From the NCBI GenBank assembly GCA_963931925.1, contig OZ007581.1, positions 20,141,947-20,205,946 on the forward strand: a stretch of DNA of 64,000 bases, written 5' to 3'. A program made the position numbers and the translations under genes. The stretch is from Onchidella celtica (taxonomy: Eukaryota > Mollusca > Gastropoda > Systellommatophora > Onchidiidae). Positions 6,640 to 59,404 of the stretch are shown piece by piece (the stretch's first letter is position 1; every line of letters begins with the position of its first letter). The notes below the pieces were generated by a model. The model was given only the letters and a program-made list of their open reading frames with translations, did no database searches and was not told the DNA's origin.

Positions 6640-6824
6640 GTGGGTTTGTGCCATATTTGCGTCCGTGCCGAGATACACATTTACTCTTTGCGAATAATCA
6701 TGGGGCTCCGCATTCATAAGGTAAAGAGAACCAGCCACACGAACGACATCTTTTCCAGCGGCGAATTTATCTTTGCAGGACATGGTTGACTTTATGCTAA
6801 GACCCATTCTTTGAACCACTTTGC
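6640..6824 (-). CDS. Gene 2 exon A2
   Basis: 185 nt, phase 1 in and phase 0 out. Acceptor CAACAG lies at 6825-6830 and donor GTGAGT at 6639-6634. It reads STMSCKDKFAAGKDVV, then GSLYLMNAEP, then VNVYLGT. About 45 percent of residues match exon A2 of gene 1 by eye. The first two bases (GC) complete a cysteine codon begun by the last T of exon B. No further exon was found to its left before the LINE. Confidence 0.8.
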
Positions 6825-9800
6825 CTGTTGGTCACGGGAGAAGTAAAGATAAAGAACAAAGAAAAATGTTTGACGTAAAAAATGTACAGACCGACAAATA
6901 TGAGAGTACCTGAGTTTTCCAATGACCGAAATTGGGTGGTTCTCTATTACATTACGTGGAAATAATTCTCGGTAGGAAACAATTTCCTTTGTTATCACTT
7001 TTAGCTATTTAGTCATGTTTCAAGTTTCATATACAATGACGATTATGATCAAGCGGTGTTCATTTTCATCGTATATGACGTTGTTCTGTCGCAGTAAGAA
7101 AATTAAGAAACTGAGTAATTAAAATCAATAATTCGTTTTTCACCATTCAGGCCAAAAGTTTGTTAGAGTCTTCAAATAATATCTCATTAAATTGAAAAAA
7201 AAAAAACTCGCTGGATTTTTTACAAGCGCTATCACCGCTCACACAGCTCTGAATGGCGTGGAATTTTGAAGGCGCATTTCTCTTGATCCGCAGAAGGTTG
7301 TTTCTCAAAATTAGCGATTTCAAATGGTGGCAAGTTTTTTTGTTTTTGTTTAGAGTTTGTTTTGTGTCGCTCATTGACTACTTCCAATCTTTTGATGTTC
7401 ACGAACACATTTGCCTATGGCATCATCAGTTCCTGACAATGTGTTCACTATGACAATGCTAACTGCCCAGTACGCAGATTATTGCCATTTTCAAGACAAT
7501 CTTGCTTCGAATGCTGATGGTATAGGTAGGTCATTAAGGTGCAATGGGAATGCAGTAAGAATAATCCAAGAACAAACGAACAAACAACAGCAAACAACGA
7601 AATAAACCAAAAGGAACGGGCAAGGTGAAGCAGATCCATTATGATCACCCAAAAACTGAAATTAATGAGCATACTTATCCCTGGCAACGCCAAGTACCTC
7701 AGCTAGTCTTTTACAATAAATGTACTAATGAAATAGGAGTCATCGGGATAGAAAAAAAAATGGAATTGACTTTGAGTTTGAGTTTCGATTTTACGGTCCG
7801 TCGGGACGATAATGGCCATTTCGCGTCATTTGTGGTCAAATTAGTGTACACTTTCTTTATTAATGTTTCCTATTCAGAGCTGTTACGTTCAACACAGAAT
7901 TAAATACATTCATAAAATGTTAACACATTGGAAACATTCTAAAATGGTTCTTTATGTATAAATCTGGAAAATGTTTTGTAAACGAGTATGAAAGTTATTA
8001 AATCAAGTGGTAGATCTTAGCCTCTTTCAGGAAGGACAGGATGCGTTGCGAGGCCACGTCAGAAAATAATTCTTTCATAGATTCGCAGGCATAGTGCCTT
8101 CTTCAGATATGCATAAGGTCTACACATTCTATTAAAATATGTTTTACTGATAGCTGGCAATTGTATGTCACACATTCGGGGGTATCTTTCCCCCCGAAGT
8201 AAAAAAACACTGTGTGAGGCGGGTGTGAAACAAACGGTGTCTACTAAGGACAATTTCATCTCTCCAAATTTGTTGACAAACTTGTGTCCACTGTCCAAGT
8301 TGATCTTAGATAAATTGTAGTTTATTTGATGTTTGTTCTTAACATCTTTCGAGCCATCTCGATTTAATGAAGTTATTAACAGCGGGTTTAAAGTTAGTGT
8401 CTGGTATTTTTAGGTGTAATTGTGGACGTTTCAGTGTTTCTTTGTCCATTACCCTTAATGACAGTTTGGCCAGGGATCCAACTGAAAACAATATTTTATT
8501 TCCTGCTGGAAAGTGTATGATGTCGTTGTAACAGATTACCGATTTCATGGGTCTTCATATTTTTTAAGACTGAAGGCAGGGCGGCGAATCAGAAAAGATA
8601 ATGAAGCGTCCTGGTCGGAAAGCAGATTATATAAGATTTAAGGCCAGGCTTTGGGGTTTAGACTGAGGCATTCGATTTCGCCATCTGCACTTGAGAATGA
8701 GGCGACCCGCGAGATGTAGAAAATAATGTTTGGTTTGTAAGTTAGCTATGGTGTAATTGCAAGAAATGGCTCATCTTTCAACTCTCACTGTCGACCGCGG
8801 CAAATATTGACCCGAAGGCAAAAAGGAGGGGTGACACCTAGTACCTAGAAAAGATTCAAAATTTTGAATGTATGATTGATTGGTAACTATATTGCAAACG
8901 GGATTGAAGCTGATCCCTATGTTATTTCTCGCACGTCGCTTAACAAAATCCATGCCAGTCACAAACAACAATGAGGTTAGTAATGTTCCACAACACGACT
9001 TTCTGTTTACCATTTGAGTTTGCTGGAATATATTACAACTGTAATTACACCCCTTCCCTCTCCACTGCACTTTAGAACCTGCTTTTCGGATGTGTAGAAT
9101 TGGTTTCACTTTTCTGAATTTTAAAACATCATTACATAAAATGGCCGCGGGACTTACAGAATTCTTATGCTCCACAGCTTAATTTACAGACTCATTCTCA
9201 TTTGAATGGGACCTCACTAATGTTACACTTTTAAAGTACGTTTGTCCTCAGCAGTGCAAATATGTCCTCAAGCAAGAGATTCAGGCTCTTCTGTAACAAG
9301 TGTCTGAAAATCAACAATACTGCATTCTTTTTCATTCCTGGCAACAACTTTATTGTCACTACTTCCTGATATTTGAATGTTTTGAGTTCATGAATGTCCA
9401 GCAAATATTTTAGCCGTTAAAGAAATAATTACAATGAACTGAACAAAAAACAAAACAAAACAACAACTTACATCTAAACTCCCTCGTTCTCCGGCAAGAA
9501 TCTTCGTACGAGAAAATAAACATTTCTTTGGGAGCCCTTTTATTAAAAGCCAAAAATTTCTCTCCACAGGGCTGCCGGAAACGAAATGTCTGTTTGTCAT
9601 CAAATGACATACTCAGTTTCGGATTATGCAGGAAATCCACACAAAATCGAATATTGGCATCCTCGGACAAATAAATTCCTGGACATTTGTTGTCGGTGAA
9701 ATTCATGCGTCTGCCATTGATTGTTAGCGAAGCCTCTGGCTGATCTGTTAAAATTAAAGAAATGTGATGGGATCAGTCTTGGTTCCTGCTTCTTTTGTGT

Positions 9801-57600: not shown

Positions 57601-59404
57601 ATAGATAGATAGATAGATAGATAGATAGATAGATAGATAGATAGATAGATAGATAGATAGATAGATAGATAGATAGATAGATAGATAGATAGATAGATAG
57701 ATAGATAGATAGATAGATAGATAGATAGATAGATAGATAGATAGATAGATAGATAGTTAGATAGATAGATAGATAGATAGAAAGAAAAGTCGAATGGCAG
57801 TCCTCACGATTTACCATAAAATAAATCTCAATAAAAAGATAGATAGATAGTTCGGACTTATGAAAAGCGTCCAGGAGGGAGAGAAAAGGGTAAAAAATTA
57901 CCAAGCTTAACCTATGAATTTTTTCTTTTTACTTGGTTCAAAACTTGGCAAACACTAATCAGATCACCCTTTTTTCTTTAACGCTATCTGGCTGCAGTGG
58001 TCACCAATCTGAGTTTTGTTTCTAATCTGCCACAGCTAAACCTGTAGCTTATTTGGTTGTCAACGGTGATCATTTCGACATCACCAACACCACGTGCCCC
58101 AGCCTGCCACTAACTCAATTCACATTATTCTATTTCTGTGTGGAAAACTTGAAAGATCCTCGGCTCACTATTTGGTTTGACACCCATAACCATTGCACTT
58201 TCGACGCCAGATGTGGCTTCATGAGTATGGCGTTGGATGAGAGTTATGGGGATAAACAGTTTTGGATCGCGTACGGCGATGCATGCAGACGAGTCTCAAA
58301 CGTCACCTGTCGAATTCCTCCAGGTTAGTTTCAACCTGCTAAGTGTTAAAAGCGGCAACTCCAAAAATTCCAGATGGCAGACGAGCCGTCGGATACTGTC
58401 CTCACTATTCAACCTCTACAAAATTAGTAAAAAGTCATCATTTGCTTTCTTTCGTGAAAAATTTCTGATTTATAATGCTTTTCTTGAGTTCTCTTGGTTT
58501 CCATCCATCAAAATTGAAGCCATAAACAATTGTTTGGATGGACTTAGTTTCAAGGACATTGATCTATCAGGAAGCTTTTCCGAAATTTCAACAGGCTGAC
58601 TGTTGAGAGTAATGTATCATATAATATTATCTTCAAATATCAGCGATTGAATATTTCTATGTCGGCTAGTAAATTTTAAACAGGCGCGCCCGATATTTTA
58701 ACCAAACCCATCGTCGCTCATACAGCTCGGATTTGCGTAAAATATTGAAGATGTCTTCCCTTCGACGCCCAAAGCCCATTGAGATTTGGAGACTTGAAAC
58801 GGTGGGGAAGTATTTTCTTGAGTTCGCTTTGTGTCACCTCTGATACTTTGTTGTTTTATTGTTGTGTTCATTGAAAGCCCAGGGGGTCATAACTTACTGC
58901 TGGGTGGTTAAAATTCAGATGATCAGTGCTTGAAGATTGTTGTTGTTTTTTTTTTAGTGATAGTGAACACAAGCCACCATTTTTCTCTTTTCAGCTGTAA
59001 TTAAAAACGCCCCCCAACCCCCCCCCCCACACACACACACACAAAAAGAGTCATGTTAAATCATTAGCATGGCCAATCAGAATCCAGAAGAGAATGCGCT
59101 AGCTACTAAAATTAGACCACATTAATTTCGAAAGGTGCCGTGTTTTTTTAAGGTCTTCGGAACAGGACAGTTAGTACAACTGATAATAATTATAAAACAA
59201 CATAATGATATAATAACACCAAGAATAACAATAATACTAACGATAATATTATTATCAAAGTATTGTCATAATAATGATAATAATAATACATTAATATCAA
59301 CTGATACTTTGGCAGGTTGTTGTGACGCTTCTTCCTTGCAAGTTATGAAAGCAATGCTGGCAGTTGTCGCTATTGGTTACTTTCTCAAGACAGCTTCAAC
59401 ATGA
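54648..59404 (+). CDS. Gene 3: complete single-unit A-C-B cysteine-rich protein
   Basis: Five coding exons: signal peptide 54648-54693, A 55295-55476, C 56608-56824, B 58036-58323, terminal 59316-59404. Lengths 46+182+217+288+89 sum to 822 nt, giving 273 residues. Phases agree at every junction. The unit keeps the ten family cysteines and adds one in B and two at the start of the last exon. The C-terminus is a hydrophobic run with a short polar end, suggesting GPI anchoring or a short membrane anchor. It is closest in style to the second unit of gene 1 (VNVYLG-type A, GCWC, FCVxNL). It is divergent from gene 1, with 3.5 kb between the start codons. The function is unknown; as the shortest complete member it defines the family. 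Confidence 0.8.
55295..55476 (+). CDS. Gene 3 exon A
   Basis: 182 nt, phase 1 in and phase 0 out. Acceptor CTCCACCAG at 55286-55294, donor GTAAGT at 55477. It reads [29 protein letters not shown] and [11 protein letters not shown]. The ATGQ start resembles A1 exons and the [11 protein letters not shown]...VYLG part resembles A2. Confidence 0.82.
55477..56607. other. A-C intron of gene 3, nothing recognised
   Basis: 1.1 kb of AT-rich intron with no element identified. Confidence 0.4.
56608..56824 (+). CDS. Gene 3 exon C
   Basis: 217 nt, phase 0 in and phase 1 out. Acceptor CTTCCAG at 56601-56607, donor GTAAGC at 56825. It reads [20 protein letters not shown] then [13 protein letters not shown] and [12 protein letters not shown]. 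Four cysteines as in the family. Confidence 0.82.
56955..57790 (+). repeat. Compound tetranucleotide microsatellite (GATA/GGAT/GGAC/GACA)
   Basis: GACA, then GATA (57030-57180), GGAT (57182-57250), GGAC-rich, GACA/GGCA, then GATA again (57361-57780). It fills about two thirds of the C-B intron of gene 3. Open frames of Ile-Tyr-Leu-Ser type come from the repeat. Confidence 0.97.
58036..58323 (+). CDS. Gene 3 exon B
   Basis: 288 nt, phase 1 in and out. Acceptor TGCCACAG at 58028-58035, donor GTTAGT at 58324. It contains [53 protein letters not shown] and NVTCRIPPG. The extra cysteine at HC is not in other B exons. It is closest to gene 1 exon B' (PVAY, FCVxNL, WFD). Confidence 0.83.
58690..58910 (+). 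mobile_element. Helitron-like fragment (R3 family)
   Basis: CGTCGCTCATACAGCTCGGAT and CTTCCCTTCGACG, then TTGAGTTCGCTTTGTGT, in common with 7215-7560 and 62930-63175. Confidence 0.45.
59316..59404 (+). CDS. Gene 3 terminal exon (hydrophobic C-terminus)
   Basis: 89 nt, phase 1 in. Acceptor TTTGGCAG at 59308-59315, stop TGA at 59402-59404. It reads [20 protein letters not shown], then YFLKTAST and stop. The DASS region could be a GPI attachment site. It is homologous to the last exon of gene 1. Confidence 0.75.

Follow-up and report, generated by a model that had tools for sequence, protein, structure and literature searches.

What kind of protein is specified where three types of short exon, here termed A, C and B, recur in constant order, with constant splice phases and with cysteines at constant places, and is it of a known kind? 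The question is posed by a 64,000-nucleotide stretch of the genome of the onchidiid gastropod Onchidella celtica (C15:20141947-20205946 of the 1.14-Gb assembly GCA_963931925.1; 'the window' below, with positions counted from its first letter), for which a preliminary description had claimed a family of ten-cysteine A-C-B proteins. The answer preferred, with moderate confidence, is a clustered and fast-evolving surface recognition family having a signal peptide, a tail that is probably of glycosylphosphatidylinositol (GPI) type and an immunoglobulin (Ig)-like part, recognition being the function that we infer.

The exon cassette

Scanning the stop-to-stop frames of the window against profiles from the exons first described yielded 13 exons (five A, four C, four B), all at E 4.3e-27 or better with the exons themselves in the profiles; the best frame after them was at E 0.22. 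The places originally given are right, from the first (6640) to the last (59404), though the count, twelve, was one short. When each exon was removed from its own profile and then searched for again, 13 of 13 were recovered, each ranked directly behind the members used: at E 2.1e-10 to 2.9e-18 for four of the A exons and 1.1e-5 for the fifth (A5), at 1.2e-4 (C5, the worst of all 13) to 1.3e-15 for the C exons, and at 2.2e-24 to 7.5e-33 for the B exons. In these runs the best non-member frame was at E 0.063 and the best frame of the one shuffled set at E 0.16, and the exon set is therefore not due to chance.

The exons belong to three genes, X on the plus strand and Y and Z on the minus strand, at whose modelled junctions the borders are AG/GT and the phase is always 1 behind a signal exon, 0 behind an A, 1 behind a C and 1 behind a B (A being 1/0, C 0/1 and B 1/1), in agreement with the order and phases first proposed. 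The joined frames of all three are free of internal stops. A unit of A, C and B has about 225 residues and ten cysteines. Since the outer phases of the three-exon cassette are symmetrical (1 in, 1 out), its duplication or loss as a block is possible with the frame intact; a profile comparison of A+C with B does not point to an internal duplication (0.3% probability). Where a single run had been pictured, with a signal peptide ahead of the first unit and a hydrophobic end behind the last, there are instead three genes, with Y and Z each having its own signal; we find a signal exon per gene and tails for X and Y.

A single genomic cluster

When the joined two-unit protein was run against the whole assembly, 83 candidates were scored and 78 matches listed at E<=1, the counts being lower bounds. 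Of these matches 76 are at C15:19.895-20.357 Mb and the other two, one on C4 (E 0.28) and one at C15:8.8 Mb (E 0.45), are at chance level. The family genes form a single genomic cluster of about 460 kb, with the window inside it. A contiguous stretch of 264 kb that surrounds the window contains, at E<1e-10, 18 A exons, 17 C exons and 18 B exons; with five B exons more from beyond this stretch, the DNA covered has 23 B exons. The family claimed is real and extends beyond the window. The same 264 kb have eight signal-peptide exons, seven ahead of a first A and one (20301719) without a recognised A following, and 11 strong tail exons, ten behind a B and one (20220484) without an assigned B; two more tail scores are weak (E 0.7 and E 1.9). 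Six genes here are of the two-unit form signal - ACB - ACB - tail, namely V, W, Z, Y, G1 and G2, and gene U (plus strand) is a seventh two-unit gene, its first A and C being just outside. G3 (20212-20217 kb) goes from an A and C of the first type straight to a B of the second, as though it had lost the three exons in between. What the sequence shows is a multi-exon gene family in tandem, a complete copy of which encodes a signal peptide, then a single A-C-B unit or two and, at the C-terminus, a short hydrophobic tail. More diverged members are present to the right, and some copies are damaged, with an in-frame stop in exon C of G2 (L023:8520-8732, minus strand) and absence of the first B cysteine from unit 2 of gene Z. 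Partial plus-strand copies are at L020:5208-5351 and L021:3925-4785, no complete exon set having been found for either.

Fold and known relatives

Structure prediction was of exons B and C, each folded alone. Exon B (B5 of gene X) is predicted to be a beta sandwich (pLDDT, the predicted local distance difference test score, 86), with C35 within the strand at 27-37 and C84 after the strand at 77-81, while for exon C the model is of low confidence. The best fold matches of the exon B model, with modest scores, are Ig domains, those of Ig-type fold being MAdCAM-1 residues 1-85, Siglec-10 residues 142-230 and ICAM-2 residues 85-186, at 6-7% identity. There is moderate support from the model for exon B being a complete Ig-like beta-sandwich domain. 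Ig domains usually have a YxC motif; compared with the adhesion receptors of the Ig superfamily, exon B has five conserved cysteines, YxDxC and no Pfam Ig match.

No named domain with the pattern of the unit was known to the author of the preliminary description. At the level of sequence this stands, with no family recognised in Pfam, among PDB sequences or in the large protein set searched; with the predicted sandwich of exon B being nearest to Ig domains, one part of the unit is therefore probably of a known fold. Pfam gave zero families for four units (E<=5) and for the whole proteins X and Y (E<=10), and with 18 B, 15 C and 18 A exons only scattered scores, of which the best was E 0.02, one member each. 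Strong matching of a known profile family to the unit, on which the claimed novelty turned, is thus not found with Pfam for X, Y, the units or the exons. Ig-family profiles had no match at E<=1 in those same exons, and at E<=10 the proteins X and Y had none either. Against PDB sequences there was no match at E<=10 apart from one in a single search (2msx, E 0.14), with which three of the five B cysteines align and which is taken as chance. A set of 5.8 billion proteins had none at E<=10, in a search that detects only relatives with common short exact words. NCBIfam gave two unrelated scores (E 0.13-0.14), an Rfam and tRNA scan gave none, 30 pattern matches of the unit alignment to viral contigs yielded zero confirmed, and a BFVD fold search had no match at E<=0.001. 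Literature searches brought to light no paper with such a family in its title or the opening of its abstract, bioRxiv preprints and most subscription papers being outside that search.

Several known kinds of protein invite comparison. Ly6/uPAR three-finger proteins have up to ten cysteines, phase-1 exons and a GPI anchor, with a domain of about 80 residues. The likeness is in cysteine number, in exon phase and, if the tail is of GPI type, in the anchor, and the difference in the length of the unit (about 225 residues) and in the sandwich predicted for B; no three-finger family is among the Pfam results for the units, X, Y or the A, C and B exons. Ependymin-related proteins were set aside as well, there being no Ependymin profile match in the units or in X and Y. 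FREPs, according to PMC7588048, are likewise secreted and multi-copy with one or two Ig-type domains. X and Y have no fibrinogen or Ig profile match, and the three-exon unit and hydrophobic tail are further differences; in place of a C-terminal fibrinogen domain both proteins end in the hydrophobic tail and a stop.

Rate of change and its interpretation

Cysteines are nearly fixed across 18 A, 15 C (of the 17 strong) and 18 B exons, as first claimed. The rates of non-synonymous (dN) and synonymous (dS) change for whole genes are 0.081 and 0.082 for Z/W, 0.175 and 0.182 for Z/V and 0.178 and 0.192 for W/V, and do not differ by bootstrap; for Y and Z (six exon pairs, 434 codons) dN is 0.45 and dS 0.96. 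Positive selection, sought as a significant excess of dN over dS, was found in zero of 20 comparisons. A dN below dS reaches nominal significance, in these 20 uncorrected comparisons, for exon B1 in Z/W (at 0.038), for G1/G2 whole (dN/dS 0.55; at 0.031) and for the second unit of G1/G2 (at 0.035). Non-coding divergence is 0.107 for Z/W, 0.218 for Z/V, 0.222 for W/V and 0.093 for G1/G2, and in all four pairs the aligned exon bases are less divergent. Z, W and V have a near-identical exon B1 (86-87 of 90 residues), beside A1 and C1 that are strongly divergent, silent sites included, in Z/V and W/V, which suggests that B1 was recently copied between these genes. Quick change in proteins that retain their cysteines is compatible both with diversification and with weak constraint.

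In the mechanism proposed for a recognition family, the proteins would be secreted by way of the signal peptide. Each unit may have five disulfides, going by the likely pairing of its cysteines, and one of them would bridge the two halves because each half has five cysteines. A and C together would make the second domain of the unit, split by an intron. The tail may be a GPI-attachment signal, perhaps tethering the protein to the membrane; some of the 11 strong tail exons end mostly hydrophobic and others do not. On cells, or shed from them, the proteins might act in binding or adhesion, and they could change quickly as genes are duplicated, copies exchange sequence and amino acids are rapidly replaced, much as happens in immune or gamete recognition families. 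The fast turnover of this one-locus family resembles that of recognition families, and the partner could be a microbe, a gamete or another cell.

What are the alternatives? The idea that the exons are chance open reading frames, pseudogene debris or derived from transposons takes some colour from the abundance of long interspersed nuclear elements (LINEs) and repeats in the window, and is nonetheless highly improbable given the complete leave-one-out recovery, the splice sites and phases, which agree from junction to junction in X, Y and Z, and the confinement of listed matches, unlike a transposon, to one place in 1.14 Gb. A more serious proposal, though one to be doubted, is that of structural or other non-recognition secreted proteins (of mucus, matrix or epithelial coat) that change fast because the constraint on them is weak. 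The closeness of dN to dS in Z/W/V, with no significant excess, is what it would lead one to expect, as are the stop in exon C of G2 and the lost cysteine of Z; it sits less well with the almost complete retention of cysteines and exon phases, and with a dN/dS of 0.18-0.33 for exon B1 in Z/W/V, a ratio resting on 3-4 changes of each kind.

Less probable still is that these are gamete or egg-coat proteins built on a divergent zona pellucida (ZP)-like module, with two Ig-like halves, rich in disulfides, fast-evolving and having a GPI or membrane tail. The unit is indeed two-part and disulfide-rich with a C-terminal part that is probably Ig-like, and ZP-module proteins have a hydrophobic C-terminus, as does the family here. 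According to the review PMC13361971, the ZP module too is two-part and disulfide-rich, ZP-N and ZP-C being Ig-like sandwiches, and abalone VERL has tandem ZP-N repeats and rapid evolution. The canonical module has eight conserved cysteines (same source), in contrast to ten with a CxC here. Zero Pfam families for units and whole proteins means that there is no Zona_pellucida match either, and in the X and Y translations no RxxR, the basic cleavage site, is seen from the final cysteine of B onwards to the tail.

A surface recognition family, the reading preferred, would belong with the Ig-like surface proteins that occur in clusters, a known kind, although its unassigned A+C half could prove more novel. 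There is a bolder version, to be regarded as speculative and rather unlikely: the 460-kb cluster would be a recognition system so far undescribed and restricted to one lineage, its receptors GPI-linked and made of a two-part five-disulfide unit with an A+C fold as yet unrecorded. Exon cassettes would have been duplicated and exchanged to diversify it, and it would be an invertebrate counterpart of vertebrate Ig-type receptor clusters. If the preferred reading is borne out, this is a protein family missed by present profiles, whose new cysteine pattern hides a part that is probably Ig-like, with a cluster layout akin to those of known fast-evolving recognition loci, and domain libraries may be overlooking clustered surface receptors of little-studied animals. 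The gene models, profiles and locus enable tests of expression, ligands and population variation.

Gene models in the window

Except where noted, the A, C and B exons given here rest on the profile scan, leave-one-out recovery and splice model together. Gene Y (minus strand; signal, A, C, B, A, C, B, tail) has two units, 511 residues, 22 cysteines and introns of 375-9028 bp. Its signal-peptide coding part, MDLLAGIQLLFAGFLLLE|G, is at 51118..51172, placed by a block shared with Z and by the splice model. Unit 1 has exons A1 (49490..49665), C1 (45488..45713) and B1 (43613..43885), the final cysteine codon of the last being split by the splice junction (T|GT), and unit 2 has A2 (43053..43237), C2 (41176..41389) and B2 (31818..32147), whose donor past the last cysteine is the junction of which we are least sure. 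The hydrophobic tail exon with stop (30891..30967) is from tail comparison and splice model. The last C-B intron of gene Y houses an array of a 22-bp unit (about 246 copies, 5.4 kb, 34728-40153), within which GC skew is strong (0.395 over 36001-40000).

Gene Z (minus strand) runs signal, A, C, B, A and then leaves the window at the left. Its signal-peptide coding part, MDLLARIQLLLAVSFLLK, at 20110..20164, again rests on the shared block and splice model, the signal exons of Y and Z having a common block of 93 bp at 78% identity, bounded by CAG at its start and the donor GGTAA at its end. Unit 1 consists of A3 (18049..18224), C3 (12196..12421) and B3 (9472..9744), and unit 2 opens with A4 (6640..6824), beyond which the gene continues outside the window with a C exon at C15:20139304, a B exon at 20136598 and a tail at 20135471. 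Two plus-strand LINEs with endonuclease and reverse-transcriptase matches are at 1810-4151 and 13471-16720; the second, whose endonuclease match is weak, sits in an intron of gene Z. Of the 120 hits listed (from 289) for a LINE protein of the window, one alone bears the name of an animal, the sea slug Elysia marginata, a hint of a molluscan source.

Gene X (plus strand; signal peptide, A, C, B, tail) has one unit, 273 residues, 13 cysteines and introns of 601-1211 bp. The signal-peptide exon (54648..54693) has its peptide before CAG|GTACAG; no paralogue of it was found, nor is it among the eight signal exons of the 264 kb, and it is for lack of a paralogue weaker than those of Y and Z. Exons A5 (55295..55476), C5 (56608..56824) and B5 (58036..58323; codons 58035-58310 being those modelled as a beta sandwich) are followed by the hydrophobic tail exon with stop (59316..59404), placed by tail comparison and splice model. 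Between the tails of X and Y there is a weak likeness, at E 0.003 for protein and at E 0.006 for DNA (80% over 35 bp). An AGAT microsatellite (about 189 copies, 57032-57785) occupies the C-B intron of gene X.

Elsewhere in the window copies of a dispersed repeat, a few hundred bases long, are present at 7768-8274, 20677-21292, 34129-34371 and 42323-42839, and a DNA search with 6600-8000 gave at least 42 genome-wide matches, most of them to the last 235 bases of the query.
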